Assembly: GCA_947629825.1 (NCBI GenBank)
Contig: CANRFF010000001.1
Coordinates: forward strand, 186,001 to 250,000
DNA length: 64,000 nt
Direction: 5' to 3'
DNA from: an uncultured Anaeroplasmataceae bacterium
GTDB lineage: Bacteria > Bacillota_I > Bacilli_A > Acholeplasmatales > Anaeroplasmataceae
Shown here: positions 10,205 to 26,675 of the stretch, piece after piece
How positions within the stretch are numbered: the first letter of the stretch is position 1
How the letters are laid out: each line of letters opens with the position of its first letter
Notes under the pieces: generated by a model
What the model saw: the letters and a program-made list of their open reading frames with translations, nothing else
Told to the model about the DNA's origin: nothing
The model's database searches: none
Made by a program: the position numbers and the translations under genes

Positions 10205-10912
10205 ATGCTTTTATTTAAACTGATTGCCAAATTGTTTTCCAAAAAAGATGAAGTTTGTTACTTGTTCAATCAATTATCTTTGCCGGAACCTCTTTCGGAA
10301 GAAGAGGAACGGGAGTGTATTTCCAAATGGCTGAATCATGATTTGGAAGCCCGAAACAAATTGATTGAGCATAATATGCGATTGGTGGTGTTTATCGCAA
10401 AGCGCTTTGAATCACCGAAAGTGTTGTTGGAAGATTTGATCTCGATTGGATCGATGGGCTTGATTAAGGGGGTGGAAACGTTCAAATCAGACAAAAATAT
10501 CAAATTGGCAACGTATGCTTCCCGTTGTATCGAAAACGAAATTTTAATGTTTCTGCGGAAAGTCAGCAAGCAAAAGAATGAAGTTTCTTTGGATGAGGCT
10601 CTTAATGTCGACGGCGATGGGAACGAACTTTTACTCGCAGATGTCATTCCGACCAATCAGGTGTTGGCGTTGGATGAGGCGATTACCAATGAGCAGGAGC
10701 GGTTGATGTATGAGGCGGTGGAGTCTCTTCGCCCTCGGGAAAAAGAAATCATCATTATGCGATTCGGGTTGTATAAGACGACGGAATATACGCAAAAAGA
10801 GGTGGCGGAAAAGTTGGGAATCTCCCAAAGTTATATTTCCAGACTGGAAAAAAAGATTATCGATAAACTGAAAATCGAGATGGAGAAAAAGTTGACAATT
10901 GCTTCCAAGTAG
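10205..10912 (+). CDS. sigE: RNA polymerase sporulation sigma factor, pro-sigma-E
   Basis: A 235-residue sigma-70-family factor matching the mother-cell sigma-E. Region 2 holds RLVVFIAKRFES, EDLISIGSMGLIKGVETF and IKLATYASRCIENEILMFLR; region 4 ends with TQKEVAEKLGISQSYISRLEKKI. The DEALNVDGDGNELLLADV linker is highly typical of SigE. The N-terminal pro-sequence is only about 18 residues (FKLIAKLFSKKDEVCY) against about 27 in B. subtilis, keeping the DEV-x-Y processing context. It starts one base after the spoIIGA stop, so activating protease and precursor are made together. Confidence 0.95.
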   Translation: MLLFKLIAKLFSKKDEVCYLFNQLSLPEPLSEEEERECISKWLNHDLEARNKLIEHNMRLVVFIAKRFESPKVLLEDLISIGSMGLIKGVETFKSDKNIKLATYASRCIENEILMFLRKVSKQKNEVSLDEALNVDGDGNELLLADVIPTNQVLALDEAITNEQERLMYEAVESLRPREKEIIIMRFGLYKTTEYTQKEVAEKLGISQSYISRLEKKIIDKLKIEMEKKLTIASK

Positions 10913-10913
10913 T

Positions 10914-10943
10914 GAATAAACCACGTAAAAGTCTTCCATATTA
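10914..10943 (+). promoter_or_regulatory. Sigma-G/sigma-F-type forespore promoter of sigG
   Basis: GAATA (10914-10918), an 18-bp spacer, and CATATTA (10937-10943). These fit the sigma-G consensus gHATr-N18-cATnhTA, which overlaps that of sigma-F. It begins two bases after the sigE stop codon, and transcription would start near 10950, 13 bases before the sigG ATG. In B. subtilis sigG is transcribed by sigma-F and by sigma-G itself. Confidence 0.75.
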
Positions 10944-10962
10944 AAATTGAAAGGAAGATTTT

Positions 10963-11733
10963 ATGCACAAAGTTGAAATTACGGGTGTAGATACTTCTAA
11001 GCTGAAAACACTGTCCAATGCGGAACAACAGGAACTACTTCAAAAAATCAAAGACGGTGATATGAAGGCGAGAGAAAAGATGATTCAGGGAAACTTGAAA
11101 TTGGTGTTGTCGGTGTTAAAACGATTCAATGATCGAAGAGAAAATTTAGATGATTTATTTCAAGTGGGTTGTATCGGTCTGATGAAGGCCATTGACAATT
11201 TTGATTTGTCACATAACGTGCGGTTTTCAACCTATGCCTGTCCTATGATTATCGGTGAAGTTCGAAGACATTTACGTGATAACGGTTCTATCAGAGTATC
11301 GAGGAGTTATAAAGACATTGCTTACAAAGCCATTGCCTTTAAAGACAGATATACTCAGGAACACCATAAAGAACCGTCGATTAACGAAATTGCGGAAGCA
11401 ATCAATGCGGATAGTGTCGATATCGTTTTGGCTTTGGAGGCCATTCAGGATACCATCAGTATGTCTACGCCGATTTATGACAACGGCGGAGATGTGATCG
11501 AATTGGAAGATCAACTGGGCGGAAATGACTATATAACGGAAAATTGGATGCGCAGTAATATGATCAAAGAAGCCTTTGCGAAATTATCCAAACGGGAACA
11601 GGCGATCATTTACGATCGCTATTATCTGGATAAAACACAAATGGAGATTGCCGAGGAATTGGATATTTCGCAGGCACAGGTTTCCCGTCTGGAAAAGACA
11701 GCGCTCAAAACGATGTATGACTATATGAAATAA
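10963..11733 (+). CDS. sigG: RNA polymerase sporulation sigma factor sigma-G
   Basis: A 256-residue sigma factor matching the late forespore sigma-G. The start HKVEITGVDTSKL closely follows the SigG-specific N-terminus, and LDDLFQVGCIGLMKAIDNFDLSHNVRFSTYA in region 2 is nearly family-invariant. IRVSRSYKDIAYKA (region 3) and QMEIAEELDISQAQVSRLEK (region 4 helix-turn-helix) complete it. GAAAGGAAG precedes the ATG. The spoIIGA-sigE-sigG order is that of endospore-forming Firmicutes and shows that this genome encodes both compartment programmes. Confidence 0.96.
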   Translation: MHKVEITGVDTSKLKTLSNAEQQELLQKIKDGDMKAREKMIQGNLKLVLSVLKRFNDRRENLDDLFQVGCIGLMKAIDNFDLSHNVRFSTYACPMIIGEVRRHLRDNGSIRVSRSYKDIAYKAIAFKDRYTQEHHKEPSINEIAEAINADSVDIVLALEAIQDTISMSTPIYDNGGDVIELEDQLGGNDYITENWMRSNMIKEAFAKLSKREQAIIYDRYYLDKTQMEIAEELDISQAQVSRLEKTALKTMYDYMK

Positions 11734-12385: not shown

Positions 12386-13486
12386 ATGGCATTAACTGCA
12401 GGAATTATCGGACTTCCCAATGTCGGTAAGTCCACTTTGTTCAATGCGATTACAAAGGCAGGGGCTTTGGCGGCCAATTATCCGTTTGCGACCATTGAAC
12501 CGAATGTGGGGATTGTTGCCGTACCGGACGAAAGACTGACGGTATTGACGGAAATGTATCACCCGAAAAAATCCACTCCGGCTTCTTGTGAATTTACCGA
12601 CATTGCCGGTTTGGTCAAAGGAGCGTCCAAAGGCGAGGGTTTGGGAAATCAATTTCTCGGAAATATCCGGAATTGCGATGCGATCATCGAAGTGGTACGC
12701 TGTTTCGAAAACGGGAATATCACCCATGTCGAAGGAAGTGTCGATCCGGTTCGGGACGTGGAAATCATCCATACGGAATTGGTTCTGGCGGATCTGGATG
12801 CGGTATTGAAAAGAATTCAGAAAGTGGAAAAAAAGGCTCAGTCCAAAGTTGACGATGCCCCTTTGGAATATGCATTATTGAAAAAAATCGAAGAGCATTT
12901 GTTGAAAGAACAACCGGTTCGGACATTGTCCTTATCCGATCAGGAACAAAAGTATTTGAAAACGTACGGATTTTTGACGGCCAAACCGTTTATGTTGGTC
13001 GCAAATATCAAAGAGTCGTCGATTTCTCATCTGGAAGAAGATCCGCACTACCAAAAACTATATGCTTACGGAAAAGAACATCACTTGAAAGTGGTACCGA
13101 TTTCGGCACAGATCGAATCGGAGTTGGCCTTGTTGTCCAAAGAAGACCAGCAGTTGTTTTTGGAAGATTTACAGTTGGAAGAACCCGGATTGAATCGTTT
13201 GATCAAAGAAACCTATGCTCTTTTGGGCTATGCGACGTTTTTTACCACCGGTCCCGATGAGGTTCGGGCATGGACATTTAAAAAAGGAATGCTTGCTCCG
13301 CAATGTGCCGGAATCATTCATTCCGATTTTGAAAGAGGATTCATTCGGGCGGAAACCGTTTCTTATCGGGATTTGATTTCTTCGAAAACGATGATCAAAG
13401 CCAAAGAAGCGGGACTGGTTCGTCAAGAAGGCAAAGATTATGCGGTTCAGGACGGAGATATCCTCCTTTTCAAATTCAATGTATAA
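12386..13486 (+). CDS. ychF: Ribosome-associated ATPase YchF/OLA1
   Basis: A 366-residue TRAFAC P-loop protein of the Obg group that prefers ATP. It has G1 GLPNVGKS (residues 9-16), G3 [20 protein letters not shown], and the non-canonical G4 VANIKE in place of NKxD, which is the basis of ATP use in the family. A coiled-coil insert at about 130-200 and a C-terminal TGS domain ([28 protein letters not shown]) complete it. It binds ribosomes and is linked to stress responses. Usual length, GGGAGATTG ribosome binding site. Confidence 0.96.
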
Positions 13487-13510
13487 GAGAAAATTCATAG
13501 GAAATCAGCA

Positions 13511-13536
13511 AAAGAGGAAGAACTTCCTCTTTTTTT
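13511..13536 (+). terminator. Rho-independent terminator after ychF
   Basis: AGAGGAA (13513-13519), GAAC loop, TTCCTCT (13524-13530), seven T. Flanking A-T pairs extend the stem. Confidence 0.9.
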
Positions 13537-13545
13537 CTGTCAAAA

Positions 13546-13553
13546 TTCGACAA
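13546..13553 (-). promoter_or_regulatory. Spo0A-box match in the surface-protein promoter region
   Basis: On the minus strand this reads TTGTCGAA (TTTTGTCGAATT in context), a full match to the Spo0A consensus, eight bases before the -35. It could let the sporulation master regulator act on the surface gene. One short match can occur by chance. Confidence 0.35.
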
Positions 13554-13560
13554 AATTTGA

Positions 13561-13590
13561 TTGACAAAATCATAGGGGGGGGGGTATAAT
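13561..13590 (+). promoter_or_regulatory. Promoter with poly-G spacer, candidate phase-variable switch
   Basis: Perfect -35 TTGACA (13561-13566) and perfect -10 TATAAT (13585-13590). The 18-bp spacer ends in a run of ten G (13575-13584) directly against the -10. Loss of one G would give the ideal 17-bp spacer; gain or further loss would weaken the promoter. The layout matches the known poly-G promoter switch of Neisseria porA. Confidence 0.85.
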
Positions 13591-13645
13591 AAAATCAATC
13601 AGTCGGTATTTTAAGAAAATTTGATAATTATAAGAGGTGGAAAAT

Positions 13646-16600
13646 ATGAAAAAAATTGCTTTTTATAGAAAACCATGGTTTATTGTCGGAGGTTTCCTTG
13701 TTTTCTTTCTTGTTTTGACAAGTATCCCCATTCTTTTGAGAAATGAAGGAAAAGAAGAACCGACACATACACAAATGAAATATTCACAGCAAGTGGAAAG
13801 CCCAGATTATCCGGATTTAATTTTCCGAAAAATTCCGACTTGTGAGTATTCTTATTCCGATTGTGCCAATTATGCAGTTTCGGTGAGTGTCAAAGACTCC
13901 GAGATTTCTGGAGAGGGTGGAGTTTTGGAAATTCCTTCTGTGATTGACACTTTGGATGATGGTAAACGCGTTTATGTAGAAGCGGTTGACGACTATGCTT
14001 TTGCCAATTGTACCAATATTACGGAAATTGTTTTGCCGGACAGCGTATGGAGTATCGGGGATTTTGCATTTGCAAATGATTATCAACTCACACGATTGGT
14101 TATACCTTCCAGTATTCATTATTTTGGTGACGGAAATTTCTTTCAAAATGGTTCTTGGAATGAGGAACTTTTTTATAATGATGGTGGAATTTATTATTTA
14201 AAGGATCAGGCTGACCAACCGGTTGCGATGGTTGGAGCGGAATACGTTGGTGCATATCTGGATTTGGGGGGAGCAACGTATCAGGTACCATATTCTTGTC
14301 GGGTTGTTCTTTCACAAGCATTTAAGCAAGTACAAATAAACGGAACGTTGAATTTTTCTTCCGCATCTATTTATCATTATGGAAGTGAAGCATTTTATGA
14401 TGCACATTTTTCTGACTCGCTGTATTTGACTTATTTATGGTATGTGGCGATGCGACAGGGAGGTATCGGAGAACGTATTTTTAATCCGAGTAATTGGCAG
14501 TATAACGGATATGATGAAATTTTATCTTTGGATGATCAAGGTAATCTCATCGCGACAATCCCCGACTATAACGGCCGTGACAGTTATAAAATTTTAATTG
14601 CTGCTTCGGATCGAGAAGAGGTTACTTTTCCGTCAGGTTATATTGTGGCAGATGGTGCGCTGATTGATACACACCCTAAAAAATTGTTGGTAAGTCCGGA
14701 TGTAATGGATATCGGAGAAAATCTGTTTGGACGTTCTGCGGAATATTCTTTGGAGTATTATATGGATAGCTTCGCCGACGCACCGAATACTTTGGAATCC
14801 ATTGAAACTTTTGGCAATGCTACTGTACGTTATGCGGCATGCAATAATATTTTATATGATCTTTTACCACCGATAGGATCTTCATCATCTTATGATGAAG
14901 AATTGATGCCGAATTATCACGAAATCGTATTGGGATGTAAAAATTCCGAATTTGTGGAACATTTCCCTGAGATTGAAGATCCCAACCTCGAATCAAATGG
15001 GGACTATTTAGTACGAATGGAAGAGTATGGTCAATGGTTGCATGACGTAATAGAGTCGGGAGAATCGTACCTTCATGGTTATTATCTGACGATTGGTGCC
15101 GGTGCTTTTTCGGGAATTGATTGGGCAGGGAAAGACCTTGTCTTGCCGGATGAAATCGCAGGAATCGGACGGTGGGCCTTTTTCGGAAGTAGATCTAATG
15201 GATCAATCCGGGTCGGTGCCGATTGCGAATATATCGGATATGGTGCTTTTTCAGATAGTTCAGTGCAATATGTTTTCTTGGATAGTGAGGTCAGTCCGGT
15301 AATCGCTCCTTATGCTTTTTACTTTTTGGAGGCAACCTGTGTTTTTTTCCCGGAAACCGTAACTTATATAGGCGATGATTGTTTCAGTAGTGCCAGTGTT
15401 GATGCGATTTATTTACCGAAAGAAAATCGTTCATATCCTTATGATACTTCATTTATAGGTGAAATATATGGTCATGTGAATGACGGTAGTAAGGAGTTAT
15501 TATTATTTGTTGAACCAGATCAATATGATTCGTATTTTCAAAATGCCGATGAAACAAATAGAAAATATTTAACGTATGAAGTGGAATTGACCTTGGAAAT
15601 TCAAAGTTTGAATCGTTCGTGGGAATATACCAAGTTATACAATAAAAGTATTCAATATGATGTAGAACACATTGAGACTTTGAGCGAGCATACCTTTTAC
15701 GTGTGGACAAAAAGTGCTACTTGGTATAATCTGCATCACGACTTCCCAAATTATTTCACGATTTCCAAAGTGGACGGATTGGATATCCACGACGGAAATA
15801 TCAGACTTACGAATACGCATTATAATATCAGCGAAATCACATTGAAATCCGATAGTTTTAATTTAATGAATAAAACTTATGACGGCAGTGTTTATCAACC
15901 ATCATTCAGTGGTTTTTATGTATCGAAAGATCTTTTTGACTTCAAGTATTATGGTGAGGCTCCGACTGTTCATGAAAACGAACTGGTTGCTCCGACGGTA
16001 GCGGGGACTTATACGGCCAATTTGACATTTAAGGATAGTTTGAAAACGACATACCATGAGGTTTGGTCATGGGATTCTTCGGTAACAGGAGATATCGTTA
16101 CGAAAAAATTTACAATTTCGCCGAGGGCTGTCGAAATTAAAATTCTTAATGTGGAGCAAACGTATGGAAATCAGGCGAAAAATTATACTCTCGGTGGAAA
16201 AGATGTTGGTTGGAAATATGTTTCTTCCAATCATCTGATTGGGGATGATGTTGAACGTTCCGTCATACTTTCCACTGATGCAACAAATGGATATCAATCG
16301 GTCGGAAAATATCCGATTACGGCTACTTTTTCGAATCCGAATTATACGGTGACCTTTACCGGTGATTTTGATGGTTCCGATGGTTATACGAGTTTAAAAG
16401 GCAAAGCGGGGATCTTTGAAATTACTCCTGCGGAGATTGGTGTCACTTTGGGACATTCTTATGTATATCAATATGGCTTGAATGTAAGTCATGAATTGAA
16501 AATCAAAGAAGAACATCTGACGTTCCAAGGTGATGTGGCTTTTGCGAGTGCTCAAGTCAAATATACGGTTTTGGCGGAATATCATTCGGGTGATGAAGAA

Positions 16601-19600
16601 AATGTTCCACCGTTGGAAAGATTTGATGAAAAAGTTCAGTCGGTCAGCGAACTGGGGACGTATATCCTTTTCTATTGTATTACCGCTCCGAACCATAAGC
16701 AGAAAATAGATTATGCGATTGTTCAGGTGGTAAATGAAGTCATTGAAATCTCTGTGGATTCGGAAAAAATGTTGGAATTTGTATATGGTTCTCAAGGAAT
16801 TGAAAGCGATGCCTTGATTGATTTATTGTATGAAAAAGGGATTATTCTCGAAGTGTTTGTGGAAAGAAAAGATACTTCCGATGGGGATACTTTGGGTAGT
16901 GTAATCAAAGAAGAGGTTGCGGATGCGCAAAACAAATTAAAACAATATGCGATTTTTGCGATTCATGACGGAGCCAAAGATATGACGAATCAGACGTTAT
17001 TATGGTCTTCCAATTATGTTGTCGATGTTAAGTCGAAGAGTGAAAGTAATGGAATGGATTTCGATTTTTACGAAGATAAGAATCCGAAAATCAAGATAAC
17101 GCCGAAAGAACTCAAACTTTCGGATATCGATTGGCAGGAAACGGCAGATGGCAATAATCCGTATGAACAAACCTATAACAAAGGAATAGATACTTACGGG
17201 CATCATCATCCGAATCCGATTGTGACTCAAAAGGTATTACCGGATGATCAGGTGTTGTTGAGTATTCAAATTTATGTTCGCGCGGATCATTCTTTGGTGA
17301 ATGACGGTCATGCGGTTGATGTCGGAGAATACGAAGTAAAAATCGAAGGTTTGACGGGAAGTGCGGCTGAACGTTATACGTTGTCAACGGAACTGAAAGA
17401 AGCATCGAAAGAGTTGAATATTCATCCTCGTACCGTTCAGATGACTTGGACTGTGAAGAATGCGCTTTATGACGGAAATTATCACAAACCGGAAGGAAAT
17501 TATAATCCTTCGGATATTCTTCCGGGAGATGAGTCAAGTGTCATTTTACTGATTACCAGTGATGGTGACAATAATGGCGGAATGGGACATATCAATGTCG
17601 GAAAATACAACTATCAGGCGACGTTACAAAATAAAAATTATGTATTGAGTGAACCGACGATTGTTTTTGAGATTTTAACGAGATCTGTCGAAATCAGAAT
17701 TCTTAATGTGCAAAAAGCGTATGGAGATGAGGCGAAAAATTATACGTTCGGCGGAATCAATGTCAGCTGGGAGTATGCTTCTTCCAATCATCTGCTCAGT
17801 TCCGATCTGGAACGTTCTATCACCTTTTCCACCGAGGCAAAAAATGGATATCAATCGGTAGGAAAATATCCGATTACGGCGAATTTTTCCGATTCGAATT
17901 ATACGGTGACCTTTATCGGTGATTTCGAGGGCGGTTCTGCGGATGTGAACGGACATGCGGGAATCTTTGAAATTGTTCCTGCGGAGATTGGTGTCACTTT
18001 GGGACATTCTTATGTATATCAATATGGGCTGAATGTAAGTCACGATTTGGAAATCAAAGAAGAACATCTGACGTTCCAAGGAGATGTGGCTTTTGCGAGT
18101 GCTCAAGTCAAATATACGGCTTTGGCGGAATATCATTCGGGCGATGAAGAAAAAATTCCACCGTTGGAAAATTTTACGGCCGGCGTTCAGACGGTCAGCG
18201 AACTGGGAACGTATATCCTTTTCTACTGCATTACCGCACCGAACCATGAGCAGAAAATTGATTATGCGATGGTTCAGGTGGTAGATGAAGTCATTGAAAT
18301 CAAAGTGGATTCGGATAAAATGTTGGAATTTGTATATGGTTCTCAAGGAATTACAAGCGATGCCCTGATTGATTTATTGTATGAAAAAGGGATTATTCTC
18401 GAAGTGTTTGTGGAAAGACAAAATACTTCCGATGAGCATACTTTGGGTAGTGTGACCAAAGAAGAGGTTGTGGATGCGCAAAACAAATTAAAACAATATG
18501 CGATTTTTGCGATTCATGACGGAGTCAAAGATATGACGAATCAGACGTTATTGTGGTCTTCCAATTATGTTATCGATGTCACTTCAAATGGGGATGACAA
18601 TGGAATGGTTTTCGATTTTTACGAAGATAAGAATCCGAAAATCAAGATAACGCCGAAAGAACTCAACCTTTCGGATATCGATTGGCAGGAAACGGAAGAT
18701 GAGAATAATCCATACGAACAAATCTATAATAAGGGATTGGATGAATATGGACATCATCATCCGAATCCGATTGTGACTCAAAAGGTATCGCCGGATGATC
18801 AGGTGTTGTTGAGTATTAAAATTTATGTTCGCGCGGGTCATTCTTTGGTAAGTGGAGATTGTGCGATTGATGTCGGAGAATATGAAGTGAAAATCGAAGG
18901 GTTAACGGGAAGTGCGGCCGAACGTTATACGTTGTCAACGGAACTGAAAGAAGCATCGAAAGAGTTGAATATTCTTCCTCGTACCGTTCAGATGACTTGG
19001 AGCGGGAAAAATGCGCTTTATGATGGTTCTTATCACTTCCCGACAGGAGATTATAACCGGTCGGATATTCTTCCGGGAGATGAGGGAAGTATCAATTTCT
19101 CGATTACCAGTCTCATTGACGATCAAGGAGGACTGGGACATATCAATGTCGGAAAATATAACTATCAGGCAACGTTAAATAATAAAAATTATGTGTTGAG
19201 TGAACCGTCGATTATTTTCGAAATTTCCAAAGGCTTGCAGGAATTTGAATTGCATCAGGACGGAACGATTTACGGAACTCCGCTTCCTTCGGCAAGTTTT
19301 ACCGGAGATCAAACGGGTGGTGTAACGTATCTTTACGAACGAATCGATGGTTCGGAAACGTATCAAAGTTCTGTGGCTCCGACCGATGCGGGAAATTACC
19401 GTTTGACCGTAACTTTAGGAGAAACGGAATTGTATCAGGCTTCCAGTCAATCGGTAACCTTTACGATTTCAAAGGCTCAAGCGGACGGTTCTGTGGAAAT
19501 CAGTTCATGGACATATGGAGCGGTTTCCTCTACTCCGCAAGCAACGACCAATTTCGGACAGGTAACGATTTTGTATTCTGCGGACGGAACGACTTATACC

Positions 19601-20266
19601 GAAGAAAAACCGCAAAATGCCGGACATTATTATATCAAGGCCGTGGTGGCAGGGACTTCCAATTATATCGGATTTGAAAAGATAGAGGAATTCGATATTT
19701 ATAAAGCTTGTTATCTTGAAAATGAAGTGGAAGAACCGGATTTTCCGGAAACCTTGACTTATACCAAGGGATTGTCGCTTGAAAATATTTCTTTGGCGGA
19801 AAATTATCGGTTTGCGGATCCGAATCAAGTTTTATTTGCCGGTACACAGGAAATTACCATTTACTATAATGCCGATCCGACGAATTATGAAAATTTCGCA
19901 ATCACCAAGACGATTACGATTGCGAAAGGCAATTATGAAAATATGAGTTATGAGACCATTACGGTTACGTATAAGGAAGGAATGACGCTTGCGGATGTCG
20001 GGTTGAGTCAGGGCTTCCGTTGGGAAGACGATACGACCGGACTGGATATCGGCGACGGCCAGATTTTCCGTGCAATATACAACGATGACAGTAAGAATTT
20101 CAACGATTATCATTTGGAAATTGTCTTGAATGTCAGAGGAGAAATTGCCAGAAATCCGTTGGAGGGAATGGAAATGGGTGCTTTCGTGTTGATTGCTTCC
20201 GTGGAAGTTCTTGCGATGATAACGATGATTGTGTTAGTCATCAGAAGGAGAAAGAGAAATGATTAG
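13646..20266 (+). CDS. Very large surface protein: BspA-like leucine-rich region plus MBG/Ig-like repeats, membrane-anchored
   Basis: A 2206-residue exported protein. Residues about 12-34 form one uncleaved-looking membrane or signal segment. Residues about 95-560 contain BspA/LRR_5-type motifs such as DDYAFANCTNITEIVLPDSVWSI and GAFSDSSVQYVFL. From about 740 on there are MBG/YDG-type beta modules (NKTYDGSVYQPSF, ALYDGNYHKPEG, VGKYNYQATLQNKNYVL), including two tandem copies of a module of about 518 residues. A transmembrane helix near the end (FVLIASVEVLAMITMIVLVI) is followed by RRRKRND; no LPxTG motif is seen. The ATG at 13646 has AAGAGGTGG in front; a GTG at 13637 lies inside that site. 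It is likely an adhesin or glycan-binding protein, but the ligand is unknown. Confidence 0.88.
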   Translation: MKKIAFYRKPWFIVGGFLVFFLVLTSIPILLRNEGKEEPTHTQMKYSQQVESPDYPDLIFRKIPTCEYSYSDCANYAVSVSVKDSEISGEGGVLEIPSVIDTLDDGKRVYVEAVDDYAFANCTNITEIVLPDSVWSIGDFAFANDYQLTRLVIPSSIHYFGDGNFFQNGSWNEELFYNDGGIYYLKDQADQPVAMVGAEYVGAYLDLGGATYQVPYSCRVVLSQAFKQVQINGTLNFSSASIYHYGSEAFYDAHFSDSLYLTYLWYVAMRQGGIGERIFNPSNWQYNGYDEILSLDDQGNLIATIPDYNGRDSYKILIAASDREEVTFPSGYIVADGALIDTHPKKLLVSPDVMDIGENLFGRSAEYSLEYYMDSFADAPNTLESIETFGNATVRYAACNNILYDLLPPIGSSSSYDEELMPNYHEIVLGCKNSEFVEHFPEIEDPNLESNGDYLVRMEEYGQWLHDVIESGESYLHGYYLTIGAGAFSGIDWAGKDLVLPDEIAGIGRWAFFGSRSNGSIRVGADCEYIGYGAFSDSSVQYVFLDSEVSPVIAPYAFYFLEATCVFFPETVTYIGDDCFSSASVDAIYLPKENRSYPYDTSFIGEIYGHVNDGSKELLLFVEPDQYDSYFQNADETNRKYLTYEVELTLEIQSLNRSWEYTKLYNKSIQYDVEHIETLSEHTFYVWTKSATWYNLHHDFPNYFTISKVDGLDIHDGNIRLTNTHYNISEITLKSDSFNLMNKTYDGSVYQPSFSGFYVSKDLFDFKYYGEAPTVHENELVAPTVAGTYTANLTFKDSLKTTYHEVWSWDSSVTGDIVTKKFTISPRAVEIKILNVEQTYGNQAKNYTLGGKDVGWKYVSSNHLIGDDVERSVILSTDATNGYQSVGKYPITATFSNPNYTVTFTGDFDGSDGYTSLKGKAGIFEITPAEIGVTLGHSYVYQYGLNVSHELKIKEEHLTFQGDVAFASAQVKYTVLAEYHSGDEENVPPLERFDEKVQSVSELGTYILFYCITAPNHKQKIDYAIVQVVNEVIEISVDSEKMLEFVYGSQGIESDALIDLLYEKGIILEVFVERKDTSDGDTLGSVIKEEVADAQNKLKQYAIFAIHDGAKDMTNQTLLWSSNYVVDVKSKSESNGMDFDFYEDKNPKIKITPKELKLSDIDWQETADGNNPYEQTYNKGIDTYGHHHPNPIVTQKVLPDDQVLLSIQIYVRADHSLVNDGHAVDVGEYEVKIEGLTGSAAERYTLSTELKEASKELNIHPRTVQMTWTVKNALYDGNYHKPEGNYNPSDILPGDESSVILLITSDGDNNGGMGHINVGKYNYQATLQNKNYVLSEPTIVFEILTRSVEIRILNVQKAYGDEAKNYTFGGINVSWEYASSNHLLSSDLERSITFSTEAKNGYQSVGKYPITANFSDSNYTVTFIGDFEGGSADVNGHAGIFEIVPAEIGVTLGHSYVYQYGLNVSHDLEIKEEHLTFQGDVAFASAQVKYTALAEYHSGDEEKIPPLENFTAGVQTVSELGTYILFYCITAPNHEQKIDYAMVQVVDEVIEIKVDSDKMLEFVYGSQGITSDALIDLLYEKGIILEVFVERQNTSDEHTLGSVTKEEVVDAQNKLKQYAIFAIHDGVKDMTNQTLLWSSNYVIDVTSNGDDNGMVFDFYEDKNPKIKITPKELNLSDIDWQETEDENNPYEQIYNKGLDEYGHHHPNPIVTQKVSPDDQVLLSIKIYVRAGHSLVSGDCAIDVGEYEVKIEGLTGSAAERYTLSTELKEASKELNILPRTVQMTWSGKNALYDGSYHFPTGDYNRSDILPGDEGSINFSITSLIDDQGGLGHINVGKYNYQATLNNKNYVLSEPSIIFEISKGLQEFELHQDGTIYGTPLPSASFTGDQTGGVTYLYERIDGSETYQSSVAPTDAGNYRLTVTLGETELYQASSQSVTFTISKAQADGSVEISSWTYGAVSSTPQATTNFGQVTILYSADGTTYTEEKPQNAGHYYIKAVVAGTSNYIGFEKIEEFDIYKACYLENEVEEPDFPETLTYTKGLSLENISLAENYRFADPNQVLFAGTQEITIYYNADPTNYENFAITKTITIAKGNYENMSYETITVTYKEGMTLADVGLSQGFRWEDDTTGLDIGDGQIFRAIYNDDSKNFNDYHLEIVLNVRGEIARNPLEGMEMGAFVLIASVEVLAMITMIVLVIRRRKRND
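16131..17680 (+). repeat. Large intragenic tandem repeat, copy 1 (about 1.55 kb)
   Basis: Runs from TCGAAATTAAAATTCTTAATG to the segment GAACCGACGATTGTTTTTGAG. It corresponds to copy 2 at an offset of 1551-1557 bases, with long stretches near-identical at the DNA level (for example 16431-16560). Confidence 0.9.
17688..19230 (+). repeat. Large intragenic tandem repeat, copy 2 (about 1.55 kb)
   Basis: Second copy of the module, from TCGAAATCAGAATTCTTAATG to GAACCGTCGATTATTTTCG. Several short blocks differ (for example NHKQKIDYA versus NHEQKIDYA), so the duplication is not brand new. Confidence 0.9.
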
Positions 20267-20966
20267 GATGATTCGGCTTTTCGGTATGGAATTTCAGTTG
20301 AACAGTACGCTGATCTTTGTGGTTTCCGTCTTTTTGATCGCATTGCTTCTGGGCGTTTTGATTACTTTGATCGTTTTATATGCGATGGATAAGAAAAAAT
20401 ACGAAAAAGAACTCGAAGAAGATTCGTTGGAAGAAGATGAGAAAACCGAAGAAATCGAGGTTCCGAAAGAGGATGAAGAATCGTATCATGCCGGAAAATT
20501 GACGTACAATATGAGTTTTGAGGCACGATATATTCGCTTGGAAGAAGAAAGCAAAAGAAGATATGTGGTTTTGAAAAATGAGTTGAAATCCTATAAAAAA
20601 GTAAAAGATAACTTGAGTTGGCGAAGAGAAAGTTATCATATCGGTCGTAAGGTAGTGGCAAGAATGTCGATTCGCGGAAAGACGTTGTGTCTGTATTTAC
20701 CGCTTGATGCGAAAGAATACGAGGAAAGCAAATACAAGGTGGAGGATATATCGAAAATCAGTTACTATGAAGATACGCCTTGTTTGTATAGAATCAGCAA
20801 TGAACGCAGACTCACTTATGCCATCGAATTGATCGGTGAAGTGATGAAAAGAATGGGTGTTGAAAAAGGTCCTACGCTCGATGAAGATTATTATTTGCCG
20901 TATGAAGGGATTGTGGAACTCATTGAAAAAGGCCTGATCAAAAGAGTAATCAGAAAAGAGGAATGA
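20259..20966 (+). CDS. Membrane-anchored protein of unknown function, coupled to the surface-protein gene
   Basis: A 235-residue protein with one N-terminal transmembrane helix (FVVSVFLIALLLGVLITLIVLY, about residues 20-41) and a highly acidic linker (about 50-77). A conserved soluble part follows, with RYVVLKNELKSYKKVKDNLSWRRESY and RGKTLCLYLPLDAKEYEESKYKVEDIS. This module recurs in Firmicutes membrane proteins of unknown role; no enzyme motif is recognised. Its ATG overlaps the last eight bases of the giant gene and has AAGGAGAAAGAG inside that gene's end, so it is translationally coupled and would share any phase switching. Confidence 0.8.
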   Translation: MIRMIRLFGMEFQLNSTLIFVVSVFLIALLLGVLITLIVLYAMDKKKYEKELEEDSLEEDEKTEEIEVPKEDEESYHAGKLTYNMSFEARYIRLEEESKRRYVVLKNELKSYKKVKDNLSWRRESYHIGRKVVARMSIRGKTLCLYLPLDAKEYEESKYKVEDISKISYYEDTPCLYRISNERRLTYAIELIGEVMKRMGVEKGPTLDEDYYLPYEGIVELIEKGLIKRVIRKEE

Positions 20967-20980
20967 TTTCCTCTTTTTTT
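20954..20980 (+). terminator. Rho-independent terminator after the surface-protein operon
   Basis: AAAAGAGGAA (20954-20963), TGAT loop containing the stop codon, TTCCTCTTTT (20968-20977), then T-run. Confidence 0.92.
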
Positions 20981-21013
20981 CTGCGGAAAAAATTTGACAA
21001 TATTTCTGTTTTA

Positions 21014-21046
21014 TTGATTGATAAATCAACATTTTTTTGATAAAAT
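21014..21046 (+). promoter_or_regulatory. Promoter of the jetABC-sepF operon with overlapping inverted repeat
   Basis: TTGATA (21018-21023), 17-bp spacer, TAAAAT (21041-21046). A short inverted repeat TTGATT-GATA-AATCAA (21014-21029) covers the -35 and could be an operator. The first gene has a strong GGGAGGAGGG ribosome binding site. Confidence 0.7.
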
Positions 21047-21083
21047 AAAACCATAGCGTCAAAACAGGGAGGAGGGCAAAAAA

Positions 21084-22502
21084 ATGGATTTTTTCAATAT
21101 CATTCCCGAACATTTTTTTTCTTTGCTTTCCGGCAAAAACAAAAGAATCTATCTGGCCTCTATTTTACAGAGTTTTAAGACTTATGAGACGGGGTCGATT
21201 TTGGGAATCGAAAAGAAAGTGATTGTCGATGATCTGATACACTTTTTGGAAACGAATCATTTTTTATACGATATCGAAAACGAAGAAGATGAAGAAGCCA
21301 ATCCGCAATCCAAAAGAGATCTGGCCAATTATATTTTGAGAAGAATGGAAGAATGCGGTTGGATTGACGTGGATGTAACGCACGATTACGAAGAAATTCT
21401 CAATTTTTCGGATGTGGCGATTATTCTTTGCGAAGCGTTGGTTTCCGCCTATCCTTCTTATGAGGATATGTATGGAGAAGAGGCCGAAGATTACGAAGTT
21501 CATGCGAATGAATATCAAGGATATATTTTTACGATTTATTCTTTGTTGGTCAATCCCGAAAATGCAGACTATGCGATGACGTTTGATTTGGTTTACAATT
21601 ATACCAAGCAACTGATTCGGGCTTTGCGCCGGTTGGACAGCCGGTTAAAAGAATATATTGCTTCCGTGGTGGACTCGACGGAAATCAAAGATCTGATGGA
21701 TCGGTTAATGCATTTCCAAACGGAAATCTATGATCGCAGTTATTTGAAAATGAAAACGTCGGATAATATCAACCGGTATCGATTGACGATTGTTTCGAAA
21801 TTGGAGGAATTGTCCAATAACGAATTGGCAATGCAGATGATCATCAATGATTATCGAAGAAGAACTCCGTCGATGGAAGTGGCGACTCAGCGAGCGACCA
21901 AGGCCATTGATGAAGTGATCGATGTTTTTAATTCGATTGATGCGTTTGTCGAGGAAATCGATAACAAGAATCGCAACTATATCAATTCGACGATTGGAAA
22001 AATCAAATTTTTGTTGAGCGAAGATGACAATGTCATCGGTAAACTTTCGACGATTTTAAGATATGTGAAAACTTCCGCCGAGAAGAATAAATTGGATAAA
22101 TCTTTAAAACTGGTGGAAGAACTTTATACGCTTCACCAGCTGAAAATGTTTCAGTCGGAAAACTCTCTTTATTCTCCGAGAGGAAGTTACAGTCGCAATT
22201 ACAATCAGTTTTTGGACAGTATCGGGTTAGAGGGATTCGAACTGACTACCGAATTTCTGGAGCAATTCAAATCGACTTACAATGAGGTGGAAATTGCGAA
22301 GTTTTTGGAGGCGCATTTGGAAAACAATCAATTACGTGCGAGTCGCTGGATTGATTACGATACGGATAATATCACGGTTTTGATGGTGGTTTATTCATTG
22401 ATGTTTGCCTCCAATCAGAATTATCGGATTACGATTTTCGATACCATCATTCAACATCGGAAATATCGGATGAAAGACTTTTTAATAGAGAGGGGTGCTT
22501 GA
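21084..22502 (+). CDS. jetA: JetA-like (Wadjet / MukF-type kleisin) subunit
   Basis: A 472-residue, mostly alpha-helical protein that fits the JetA/DUF5716-type kleisin of Wadjet condensins. The N-terminal part looks like winged-helix modules (MDFFNIIPEHFFSLLSGKNKRIYLASILQSF), and long helices fill the middle and C-terminal half. In characterised complexes JetA bridges the JetC heads and binds JetB. Assignment rests on the protein itself plus the order of a small DUF4194-like gene and an SMC-like ATPase behind it. Stop and next start are separated by two bases. Confidence 0.85.
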   Translation: MDFFNIIPEHFFSLLSGKNKRIYLASILQSFKTYETGSILGIEKKVIVDDLIHFLETNHFLYDIENEEDEEANPQSKRDLANYILRRMEECGWIDVDVTHDYEEILNFSDVAIILCEALVSAYPSYEDMYGEEAEDYEVHANEYQGYIFTIYSLLVNPENADYAMTFDLVYNYTKQLIRALRRLDSRLKEYIASVVDSTEIKDLMDRLMHFQTEIYDRSYLKMKTSDNINRYRLTIVSKLEELSNNELAMQMIINDYRRRTPSMEVATQRATKAIDEVIDVFNSIDAFVEEIDNKNRNYINSTIGKIKFLLSEDDNVIGKLSTILRYVKTSAEKNKLDKSLKLVEELYTLHQLKMFQSENSLYSPRGSYSRNYNQFLDSIGLEGFELTTEFLEQFKSTYNEVEIAKFLEAHLENNQLRASRWIDYDTDNITVLMVVYSLMFASNQNYRITIFDTIIQHRKYRMKDFLIERGA

Positions 22503-22504
22503 TA

Positions 22505-23092
22505 ATGTTGGAAGCCTATGCGAATATGAATGTGACACAACAAACACAATTTAAGGATACGGCAAATAAACTGCTGGCGAATACTTTTTTGTGTCGGGAT
22601 AAAAAGGACAATAAGGAAAATTATTATTTTTTCATCAGTTTTAAGGAAGTCTTTGATGAGTTTTTTCAAATTTTGGGGTACGAAATCACTTTGGATTCCA
22701 ATACCGGTTCGGTGATGCTTTCCGGTGCCAGTGCCTCCAATACTTTGAAATTGAAAAGAGACGAATCTTTGATTTTATTGATTTTGCGACTGTTGTATCA
22801 TGAGAAAATGAAAGATACGTCTTTGAATGAAAATATCGTTTGTACCATCGGCGACATTCATACCAAATACGATTATCTGGAAATCAAGAAAAAACTGAAT
22901 AAAACGGATTTGATTTCGGCGATTCGTTTATTGCGCAGATATAATTTGATAGAAGTTACCGGAGATGTGACCACTTCGACGTGTCGGATTGTGATTTTAC
23001 CGACCATATTATTGGCGATTCGAAGTGAAGACATCAATGAAGTATATCAGACAATTCAGCATATCAATCAGGAGGATGTGAAAAGCGAATGA
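22505..23092 (+). CDS. jetB: JetB-like (MukE-type, DUF4194) subunit
   Basis: A 195-residue protein matching the DUF4194/JetB group, the MukE-like KITE dimer of Wadjet-type condensins. Typical stretches are TLKLKRDESLILLILRLLYHEKMKD, the winged-helix section KKKLNKTDLISAIRLLRRYNLIEV and the final strand CRIVILPTILLAI. The ATG at 22505 was chosen because GAGAGGGG ends nine bases upstream; the TTG at 22499 lies too close to it. The gene ends in an ATGA overlap with jetC, which implies coupled, stoichiometric translation. Confidence 0.85.
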   Translation: MLEAYANMNVTQQTQFKDTANKLLANTFLCRDKKDNKENYYFFISFKEVFDEFFQILGYEITLDSNTGSVMLSGASASNTLKLKRDESLILLILRLLYHEKMKDTSLNENIVCTIGDIHTKYDYLEIKKKLNKTDLISAIRLLRRYNLIEVTGDVTTSTCRIVILPTILLAIRSEDINEVYQTIQHINQEDVKSE

Positions 23093-26000
23093 AGAAATTA
23101 GTGAAAATACGGCTGATCAATTGGCACTATCTTTCCAATGAAACGATTGAATTGGATGGAAATGTATTGTTGTCCGGTCCGAATGCTTCCGGAAAGTCCA
23201 CGTTGATGGATGCGATCACCTATATTATGACGGCGGGAGATACGATGTTCAATTTGGCCGCAAACGAAAAGGGAAAGCGTGATTTACGGGGATATGTCAA
23301 ATGCAAACTCGGAATGGACGATAAAGAATATTTACGTAACGGAGATGTTTCGGGGCATGTGGCGTTGGAATTTTTTGATGAAAAAACGGAAAATTCTTTT
23401 GTCGTCGGAGCGGTCATTGATGCGTTTGGGGAATTGTTGCCGGTCAAAACATTGTTTTACAGAACGTATGAACCGTTGAATGATTCGATGTTCGTTTCGG
23501 AAAATCATGAGATTTACGGGACGGTGGAATTCCGGAAACACAATCCGAATTTCGAATATTTTTTGACTAAAAAAGAGGCCAAAAGAGGATTTCGAACCGC
23601 TTTCGGGTCGATTAACGAAGATTTTTACCGGTTGATTCCGAAAGCATTGGCGTTTAAACCGATTGCGGATGTCAAAGATTTCATTTACCAGAATATTCTC
23701 GAAGAAAAAGAAATCGACGTCACCGCCATCAAAGATTCGATTCGTTCTTATAAAGAACTGGAAAACACTTTGAAATTGATCAATAAAAAGATTGCGGATC
23801 TGAAAGAAATCGATTCGATTTATCAGGAATTGAAAGGAATTCAGGAGCAGAAAGATTATATTGATTATCTGATGCATCTGTTTGATGTCGAAGCTGTTCG
23901 TTCGGAAATGAACGATGCGTCGAAGCAAATTGAAAAACAGGAAATTCTGAGAGTATCGAAAGAAAAGGAAATCAACGATTTGGATCATGAACTTCTTTCT
24001 TTGAATGAACGTTCCAAAGAATTATATATCGCTTTAAGCAACAACGATACGTTCAAGGCGGAAGAATATCTGAATCGGGAGATTCTGAGGACACAGACCA
24101 ATATTACGGCACTGGAGGCCAATCAACAGTCTTTTTTGAAACGTTGCGGAAAATACAAAGAATCCGTCGATCAGATCCGGAAGATCTGCAGTGACAAATT
24201 ATTTAACGAAATGGCCAATCTTCCGTTGGTGCAAATCAATTCGATGGACGTTGCTTCAACGAAAATCAGGCTTCAGGATTTTTCCGAACGGCTGAAGACT
24301 TTCCAGAATCATCTTCTTCAGGAATTGGGCGCACTCAATACGAAAAAGAAGGCGTTGGTTTCCGAAATCAATGAAATTTCCATTTCTTTGAAATCCGTCG
24401 AACAAAACCATGTCAATTTCCCGAATGCGTTGATTCAAATGAGAAATGAAATCGAAGAGGGACTGAAACGGATTTACAATTATGATATCAAAGTGCATAT
24501 TTTTGCGGAACTTTGTGAGATTACGGACAGTCATTGGGCCGATGTGGTTGAAGTGTTCTTGGGAAATCGTCGGTTTTATTTCATCGTGGAACCGAGATAT
24601 TATGATCAGGCGCTGTTGATTTACGATCGGATCAAGGGACGGTATCGGCTATATGGCGTCGGGTTGGTCAATACCAAACAGATCTCCAAATTCAATACGT
24701 ATGAGCCGAATTCTTTGGCGTCGATTCTGACCAGTGAAAATCAGGATGCACAACGGTATATCAATTACACTTGCGGAAATGTCATTATGTGTAAAGAAGC
24801 ATCGGAACTTGAAAACTATCAGACGGCCGTTACCGATGATATGCTGATTTATCGGGGCTATGCCGTCACTTCGCTCAATCCGAATGTGGAAAGACCTTTT
24901 ATCGGGCGGAATGCCGCTTCAAAACAGGTGGAACAGTGGAGAGAAAAAGCCAATATCACCAAAAACGAATATGTGGAATTGGACCGTCAGATTCAGAATT
25001 TGACTCAGATCGCCACCTATATCCAGCAAATCGATATCCGGCCGATCATGGAAGATCTGGACAAGGCGATTACGTTGGAAAAAGAGAAGAATGCTTTGGT
25101 GGATCTTACCAAGCAGGCGGCTCGCCGGAAAAACGCGACTCCTTCCGAATTACAGGACGATTATGACAAAGTATTGTCGACGATCAAATCCTGTGATACG
25201 AGAAAAATGACGCTCGGAAAAGAAATCGGTGGAATCGACAATGCGATTGACGCTTTGAATGCGGTGATTTATACCAAGAAAAATCAGTTGGCGGAATTGG
25301 AAAAAGAACTGAAAAATCTGTCCAATGGTTCGGTAGTGGTCGAACAGCGGGCGTTGGAAGAATATCAGGCGTTGGTTTCTACGAAAAATTTCAAACAGGC
25401 TTTTGCCGAATATCAGGAAAAATATCGAAGCGAAGAGGGAAGTTATACTCTTTTGAACGATACGTTGATTGCGAAACAGTATGCGTATATCAATACTTAC
25501 AATTCGACATTTTCGATTGGGTTGACGGAAATCGATAAATTCGAGGCGGAACTGGTCAAATTAGAGAAGACGGAATTGATCAAATACGAAAGAAAAGTAA
25601 GATCCGCTCGGGAATCGGCGGAACTGGTTTTCAAAGAAGATTTCATTGCGAAGTTGAGAAATAATATTTTGACGGCGGAGCAGGAAATTTCCAAAATCAA
25701 CGAAACCCTTTCGAACATTACTTTCGGAAACGACCGCTATGAATTTATTTTCCCGAAGAGCAGTGAATACTCTCAATTCTATGAAATGGTCACTTCCGAT
25801 CTGGAAGATAACAACCAAGGGTTACTGACTTATGAATTCCAGCAGAAATACGATGAACAAATCCGGGAATTATTCGAAACTCTTTCGGTTGATGAAGTCA
25901 ACAGCAACGGGGCAATCAATAAATTTACGGATTATCGTACCTATATGGACTACGATATCCGGATCATCAACAATCACGGAGAAACGATGACCTATTCCAA

Positions 26001-26334
26001 AGTGTTCAAGGAAAAATCCGGTGGAGAAACTCAGGTACCGTTTTATGTGGCGATTATTGCTTCTTTCGTTCGGGTTTACACGAAGACGTCCGTTTTGGGC
26101 GGAGATCCGATCGGATTGGTTTTATTTGATGAAGTTTTCGATAAAATGGATGCGAATCGTATGCATTCCATGATGAATTTTATCAATTCCATGCCGTTGC
26201 AGGTCATCATTGCCTGCCCACCGCAGAGAATGGATATTTTACAGAAATTTGCGAAGACGACGTTGATTATGGTTCGTCAGGGAACAAAAGCGTCTGTTCT
26301 TCCGATGATTCAGAATGAAGAGGTGGAACAATGA
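23089..26334 (+). CDS. jetC: JetC-like (MukB/SMC-type) condensin ATPase
   Basis: A 1081-residue SMC-like ATPase. Walker A GPNASGKST is at residues 30-38. An ABC signature (EKSGGETQVPFYVAI) lies near 974 and Walker B with catalytic Glu (LVLFDEVFDKMD) near 1013. Long coiled coils run on both sides (about 220-450 and 620-920) of a central hinge-like region (about 470-600). This is the two-headed motor of a Wadjet/MukBEF-type complex that extrudes DNA loops. It overlaps jetB before it and sepF after it by four bases each. No jetD, the TOPRIM nuclease that makes Wadjet cut circular plasmids, lies beside it. Confidence 0.92.
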   Translation: MKKLVKIRLINWHYLSNETIELDGNVLLSGPNASGKSTLMDAITYIMTAGDTMFNLAANEKGKRDLRGYVKCKLGMDDKEYLRNGDVSGHVALEFFDEKTENSFVVGAVIDAFGELLPVKTLFYRTYEPLNDSMFVSENHEIYGTVEFRKHNPNFEYFLTKKEAKRGFRTAFGSINEDFYRLIPKALAFKPIADVKDFIYQNILEEKEIDVTAIKDSIRSYKELENTLKLINKKIADLKEIDSIYQELKGIQEQKDYIDYLMHLFDVEAVRSEMNDASKQIEKQEILRVSKEKEINDLDHELLSLNERSKELYIALSNNDTFKAEEYLNREILRTQTNITALEANQQSFLKRCGKYKESVDQIRKICSDKLFNEMANLPLVQINSMDVASTKIRLQDFSERLKTFQNHLLQELGALNTKKKALVSEINEISISLKSVEQNHVNFPNALIQMRNEIEEGLKRIYNYDIKVHIFAELCEITDSHWADVVEVFLGNRRFYFIVEPRYYDQALLIYDRIKGRYRLYGVGLVNTKQISKFNTYEPNSLASILTSENQDAQRYINYTCGNVIMCKEASELENYQTAVTDDMLIYRGYAVTSLNPNVERPFIGRNAASKQVEQWREKANITKNEYVELDRQIQNLTQIATYIQQIDIRPIMEDLDKAITLEKEKNALVDLTKQAARRKNATPSELQDDYDKVLSTIKSCDTRKMTLGKEIGGIDNAIDALNAVIYTKKNQLAELEKELKNLSNGSVVVEQRALEEYQALVSTKNFKQAFAEYQEKYRSEEGSYTLLNDTLIAKQYAYINTYNSTFSIGLTEIDKFEAELVKLEKTELIKYERKVRSARESAELVFKEDFIAKLRNNILTAEQEISKINETLSNITFGNDRYEFIFPKSSEYSQFYEMVTSDLEDNNQGLLTYEFQQKYDEQIRELFETLSVDEVNSNGAINKFTDYRTYMDYDIRIINNHGETMTYSKVFKEKSGGETQVPFYVAIIASFVRVYTKTSVLGGDPIGLVLFDEVFDKMDANRMHSMMNFINSMPLQVIIACPPQRMDILQKFAKTTLIMVRQGTKASVLPMIQNEEVEQ

Positions 26335-26675
26335 GTTTATTTGGAAAAAAGAAAAACGAATACGAAGAAGCGTCGAAAAATTTAAGTCAATCGACTTTGG
26401 CAAGCGATCGTCTGATTATCGAACAGCTTCAGGATAACGATCAAAAGGCGGCCGAGTTGGTTTCGTCGCTGAAACAGGGAAATCCTCTGATATTGAATTT
26501 CGAGGATCTCGATCCTCTTCCTGCGAATAAATTGTTGGCTTTTTTTGCGGGAGCCTGTTATGCGCTGGATGGAAAAAGTGTCAAGATCAACGACAAGACC
26601 TATTTATTTGCGAGAAAAGCAGAATTTATGGACGGCTCCTTGCAAAACTTTATCGACCATTTGCCGAAAGCATAA
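26331..26675 (+). CDS. sepF: SepF-like cell division protein
   Basis: A 114-residue protein with the SepF (DUF552) fold. A short N-terminal segment (MSLFGKKKNEYEE) may be the membrane-binding helix; it is followed by the core DNDQKAAELVSSLKQGNPLILNFEDLD and FFAGACYALDGKSVKIND. SepF anchors FtsZ to the membrane and arranges filaments at the septum. It is shorter than the 150-residue B. subtilis protein because the linker is reduced. Its ATG overlaps the jetC stop (ATGA), so it is made together with the condensin rather than with ftsZ, which is 20 kb away. The terminator behind it closes the operon. Confidence 0.88.
   Translation: MSLFGKKKNEYEEASKNLSQSTLASDRLIIEQLQDNDQKAAELVSSLKQGNPLILNFEDLDPLPANKLLAFFAGACYALDGKSVKINDKTYLFARKAEFMDGSLQNFIDHLPKA

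Follow-up and report, generated by a model that had tools for sequence, protein, structure and literature searches.

A poly-G tract in a promoter spacer as a likely phase-variation switch of surface-protein genes in an uncultured Anaeroplasmataceae bacterium

We propose that a run of ten G residues in the spacer of a sigma-A promoter is likely to be a phase-variation switch that works by replication slippage, and that it is one element of a multi-gene system similar to those of Neisseria porA and the Mycoplasma vlp genes. Switching has not been observed, and the effect on transcription is inferred. The promoter lies in a 64,000-nt stretch of DNA from an uncultured member of the Anaeroplasmataceae (hereafter "the window"). 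What the data establish is the layout of the promoter, its recurrence, the bias of its targets, the variation of tract length between genomes and between paralogues, and the lack of compensation elsewhere in the spacer; slippage within a population, its effect on transcription and its biological benefit are inferred only. In the proposed mechanism, slippage in replication would add or remove one or two G, altering the -35 to -10 spacing (now 18 bp) and turning transcription up or down. A 2206-aa LRR surface protein and an overlapping membrane-protein gene would then vary together, and the promoter, being one of at least seven in the genome and part of a family-wide repertoire, would contribute to a heterogeneous cell surface. 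The benefit may be evasion of the host's immunity or of phages, or a choice between modes of adhesion. The number of G in the ON state is not known here (G9 would make a 17-bp spacer), and the data fit a dimmer as well as an on/off switch for the cell surface. The stepwise change in promoter strength envisaged in the initial annotation thus remains an inference, since neither graded output nor within-population variation has been seen.

The promoter, like all features of the window given below, is on the forward strand. Positions 13561-13590 read TTGACA-AAATCATA-GGGGGGGGGG-TATAAT, and the claim of two perfect boxes separated by 18 bp, the last ten of them G, held exactly. Direct reading, a promoter scan and a shuffle test agree on the consensus -35 box (13561..13566) and -10 box (13585..13590). 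The fixed non-G part of the spacer, AAATCATA (13567..13574), was delimited by direct reading and family comparison, and its 8 nt compare with 9 nt as the commonest length in the family. The G10 tract, the proposed slippage element (13575..13584), abuts the -10 box and has its G residues on the non-template strand. An SD-like ribosome-binding site, AGAGGTGG (13633..13640, direct reading), precedes the ATG at 13646 that opens the 2206-codon frame (13646..20266). Pfam assigns LRR_5 repeats of the BspA type together with an MBG domain to the product, whose N-terminus has a hydrophobic segment and whose C-terminus has a TM segment plus the basic tail RRRKR. The annotated surface protein therefore held as regards domain content and TM termini; that it is driven by this promoter is inferred. 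Two features of a porA-type switch, a homopolymer between recognisable -35 and -10 boxes and a target at the surface or involved in host interaction (here the LRR_5/MBG protein with terminal TM segments), are met at this site, so that the proposed porA-like layout also held.

The end of the long frame overlaps the gene of a 235-aa membrane protein (20259..20966), for which no Pfam family was matched. Because the two frames overlap and a terminator-like stem-loop (20952..20979; fold -13.5 kcal/mol, z -3.65) comes after the second gene, they probably form a two-gene unit on one transcript, in line with the earlier suggestion that the gene at 20259 would switch too. On the upstream side, the intrinsic terminator of the ychF gene (13510..13533; terminator scan, fold -12.7 kcal/mol) is predicted to isolate the poly-G promoter. 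The two stem-loops bracket the unit and thus leave outside it the Wadjet genes that begin at 21084; read-through into them is unlikely in view of the second stem-loop (20952-20979) and of a separate site resembling a promoter further on, at 21018-21046. The Wadjet locus itself, behind the terminator, comprises JetA, JetB and JetC genes (21084-26675) and a fourth ORF of 114 aa without a match to any JetD model, and the system may be incomplete.

The tract at 13575-13584 is the sole G run longer than 6 in the whole window. Dinucleotide shuffles give an expectation of 0.06 G10 runs per window (5 of 100 shuffles hold one somewhere) and of 0.02 for the exact TTGACA-N18-TATAAT, and 13561-13590 is the only 12/12 sigma-70 match within 13400-21200. 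The coincidence of the G10 with a perfect promoter is not due to chance.

The genome of the window (1.42 Mb, 12 contigs) contains 14 tracts of G>=8, seven of which are in clear promoters of the TTGAC..Gn..TATAAT/TAAAAT type (as contig:position, C1:199575, which is the window tract, C2:8777, C3:34684, C3:37083, C3:52501, C3:124724 and C5:37746). Two more, at C4:77715 and C4:87341, abut TATAAT or TATTAT and are doubtful on account of poor -35 boxes. Three targets are LRR_5 proteins (the window gene and those at C3:34684 and C5:37746); the others include a 12-TM PMT_2-type glycosyltransferase (C3:52501), an exported 650-aa protein and a protein that we take, from our reading of its N-terminal motif, to resemble CDP-glucose dehydratases. 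The targets are several, unrelated or of the LRR type, and the surroundings of the window gene do not show the vlp-type pattern, in which every member of a paralogous surface-gene family has a tract promoter. The tract at C6:71226 was rejected as a promoter, as it lies in frame within an mnmA-like gene (SGGVDSS), and those at C3:14112, C4:72133 and C5:35711 are not promoters either, their nature being unclear. The remaining tract, a G9 at C2:184638-184646 (locus L010:4001-4009), lies within coding sequence: a 734-codon frame stops directly after it, whereas the +1 frame stays open for another ~300 codons, the last of which encode a C-terminal TM anchor, and one extra G would join the two. It is possible that this is a frame-type phase switch of a surface ORF caught in the OFF state; it may also be an assembly error.

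The layout recurs across the family, whose identity as Anaeroplasmataceae follows from loci of G006 and G009 that are identical to database records under the names Anaeroplasma bactoclasticum and Anaeroplasmataceae. The pattern GGGGGGGGTATAAT occurs 39 times in Anaeroplasmataceae genomes and has no match in the further families examined within the order; the reversed pattern was also without any match. A wider pattern finds about 50 poly-G promoters in 18 of the 55 family genomes, with zero matches to the reversed control in the same 55. A poly-C counterpart in the spacer is essentially absent (one match, spurious), and therefore the strand bias is real: in the family the G residues lie on the non-template strand in every case, and the tract usually abuts the -10 box. 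Run lengths are bimodal (6:9, 7:2, 8:17, 9:18, 10:15, 11:7), with the caveat that the loci were picked for G>=8; the same threshold biases the searches against interrupted or shortened tracts. Among the 32 strict TTGACA/TATAAT tract promoters (G 8-11), the non-G part is 9 nt in 22, the total spacer ranges from 14 to 20 bp with a mode of 18, and the length of the non-G part does not compensate for the G count (rho -0.16, p 0.39). Such compensation would be expected of a static promoter selected for its spacing.

Of the 51 tract genes, 38 encode exported products, whereas the background has 87 such ORFs among 395 (OR 10.3, p 2e-13); a lipobox is found in 17 tract genes and in 36 background ORFs. 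The export call rests on a simple rule of N-terminal hydrophobicity plus lipobox. It is therefore likely, although inferred from sequence alone, that the poly-G promoters mainly control genes for surface or exported proteins. An exception is the orthologous pair L210 and L236 (39% identity), which have poly-G promoters with G8 and G11, respectively, but encode cytoplasmic proteins of ~1500 aa whose function is unknown.

A porA-type switch should also vary in length between similar copies, and this is seen in relatives, from which, rather than from the window site itself, the evidence comes. Two genomes (G026 and G030) are about 98-99% identical over 3.5 kb around one such promoter, yet carry G6 and G8. 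Orthologues L225, L221 and L230 have G10, G10 and G12, and further ortholog groups read 10/9, 9/8, 8/11, 9/8, 8/9/8/8 and 13/13/11, so that length differs in seven of eight groups, the remaining one being invariant at 8/8/8. Paralogous promoters within G213 (8/9) and within G418 (8/9) differ only, or nearly only, in G number. Taken together, paralogues or orthologues show G8/G9, G10/G9, G10/G11 and G10/G12 differences, and the G6/G8 and G8/G9 cases are found at 96-99% flanking identity. Alignment of eight pairs gave a G tract of altered length in four and an interrupted one in none, compared with 6 and 10, respectively, of 45 A/T runs of >=6; the absence of interruptions is biased, because the tracts had been found by a search for G>=8. 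On the other hand, the sister species G007 and G009 have equal lengths at four of four tracts, which speaks against fast switching. Loss of mismatch repair as the driver is rejected: MutS1-family matches are present in 55 of 55 genomes, and in 50 of these, that of the window among them, they exceed the curated cut-off. Intact repair would hold slippage back, and its rates may accordingly be moderate. The notion of a phase switch, speculative from one site alone, is supported by recurrence, surface targets and differences in G number.

Tracts are also retained over longer distances. The window protein has a single good homologue, at 31% identity and from another genus (g6, genome G021), and its gene is likewise behind a poly-G promoter; no orthologue from the same genus was found beyond weak LRR similarity. 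Orthologues with 39-62% protein identity keep their tract promoters although the other spacer bases differ, which indicates that selection, not drift, has kept the tract. Of the 64 tracts, 11 are no more than 150 bp away from the end of a contig, where 1.2 would be expected. This clustering possibly reflects mixed lengths in the sampled population, but it would also fit sequencing dropout at G runs and is merely suggestive; it must also be noted that assembled homopolymer lengths can be wrong. Contigs break near poly-G promoters in G006, G007, G009, G030, G021, G158, G213 and G298.

Outside the family, the strict layout is found in 20 of 395 genomes of the class, with zero control matches. One of them, from another order (G418), contains seven tandem paralogous surface-protein genes spaced ~2 kb apart, each preceded by TTGACAAATYGAATAC-G8/9-TATAAT (one tract is G8, the others G9). 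This array (loci L246-L248; C6:8343-27066 and C41:6217), whose paralogues, at least seven in number, share the start MKNLKMFAI... and a C-terminal anchor, meets the vlp-type arrangement. Among 84,980 species representatives at least 117 loci have the layout, mostly in gut Bacilli and Clostridia MAGs, with some in Saccharibacteria, Spirochaetes and Streptobacillus, and 86 of 115 downstream products look exported; 2.9 million viral contigs (IMG/VR) yielded one match only. In this survey (L049-L165) a spacer of 17 bp is the rarest of those from 16 to 20 bp (9 of 125, compared with 21 of 16 bp, 31 of 18 bp and 36 of 19 bp), and the non-G part has a bimodal length, by eye 7 nt in Clostridia and 9-10 nt in Bacilli.

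The initial annotation had regarded such a switch in a sporulating Firmicute as unusual. The sporulating character held in gene content: SigE- and SigG-like sigma factors are encoded at 10205-11733 of the window and SpoIVA elsewhere in the genome (C9:6081-7526). SpoIVA is found in 17 of 55 family genomes, which is unexpected for a family that NCBI places in Mollicutes. "Unusual" was only half right, since many MAGs of gut Bacilli and Clostridia share the layout.

Among alternative explanations, the one that survives best, though we consider it unlikely, is a fixed structural or regulatory promoter element (stiff or A-form-like DNA, a regulator site or G-rich tuning) whose length drifts slowly without any switch. 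In its favour are the constant strand of the tract and its usual contact with the -10 box, the identical lengths at all four tracts of G007 and G009, and the presence of MutS. However, the spacer is not kept at one length while the G count changes, G6/G8 and G8/G9 differences arise despite 96-99% flank identity, the targets are typical of phase variation, and a protein site needs no pure homopolymer. Still less probable is a relic, i.e. former contingency tracts now mostly locked, with mismatch repair keeping slippage at a negligible rate. It is favoured by the intact MutS and by the equal lengths in one sister pair, but pure G tracts persist in divergent orthologues with changed spacer bases, and length differences build up even between near-identical genomes. 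A chance homopolymer or assembly artefact at a single promoter, conceivable for a MAG assembly with error-prone homopolymers and a G10 in 5 of 100 shuffles, is all but excluded by about 50 recurrences in the family and many in other genomes with zero control matches, by the conservation of the tract in orthologues, and by the single match in 2.9 million viral contigs.

If the slippage switch is accepted, a large uncultured group of gut bacteria varies its surface by promoter slippage and not by DNA inversion, on which surveys of phase variation in the gut usually concentrate. Such switches could be read from existing metagenomes by counting G-run lengths, and therefore heterogeneity, selection by host or phage, and switching rates would become testable without culture. 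The poly-G promoters also represent a natural series differing only in spacer length. It is tempting to go further, and on balance we lean towards a bolder reading, in which poly-G spacer switches are widespread in uncultured gut monoderms (Anaeroplasmataceae, other Bacilli and Clostridia) and occasional in other phyla, with a shared geometry of 7 or 9-10 non-G nt and G8-12 at the -10 box, a genome-wide promoter phasome, and vlp-like tandem antigen arrays in some lineages.

The class of mechanism is known. The open-access literature searched yielded no paper on phase variation in Anaeroplasma, and there appears to be no earlier report in it of this lineage, of so many promoters or of the apparent breadth among uncultured gut bacteria. 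In Neisseria meningitidis porA, a poly-G between the -35 and -10 boxes alters transcription by one-base changes (van der Ende 1995, PMC3899988). The Anaeroplasmataceae promoters likewise place poly-G in this spacer before a surface-protein gene, where a one-base change shifts the spacing. However, porA is a case from a Gram-negative with a proven effect on transcription, whereas here a family-wide set of promoters has perfect hexamers and the effect is only inferred. In Mycoplasma hyorhinis, every vlp promoter contains a homopolymeric A tract through which the gene is switched (Citti and Wise 1995, PMC10502178). As in that system, where the products are lipoproteins, several surface genes here have their own homopolymer promoters, and the G418 array is arranged similarly; the tract is poly-G instead of poly-A, and vlp switching, in contrast, has been demonstrated. 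In the sortase-pilus system of Bifidobacterium breve, a gut commensal, G-tract slippage has been described together with in vivo selection (PMC9187656). As proposed here, G-tract slippage there controls a surface structure of a Gram-positive gut commensal, but the B. breve tract is intragenic and switches the reading frame rather than the promoter spacer, so that its closer parallel in the present genome is the coding G9 at C2:184638.
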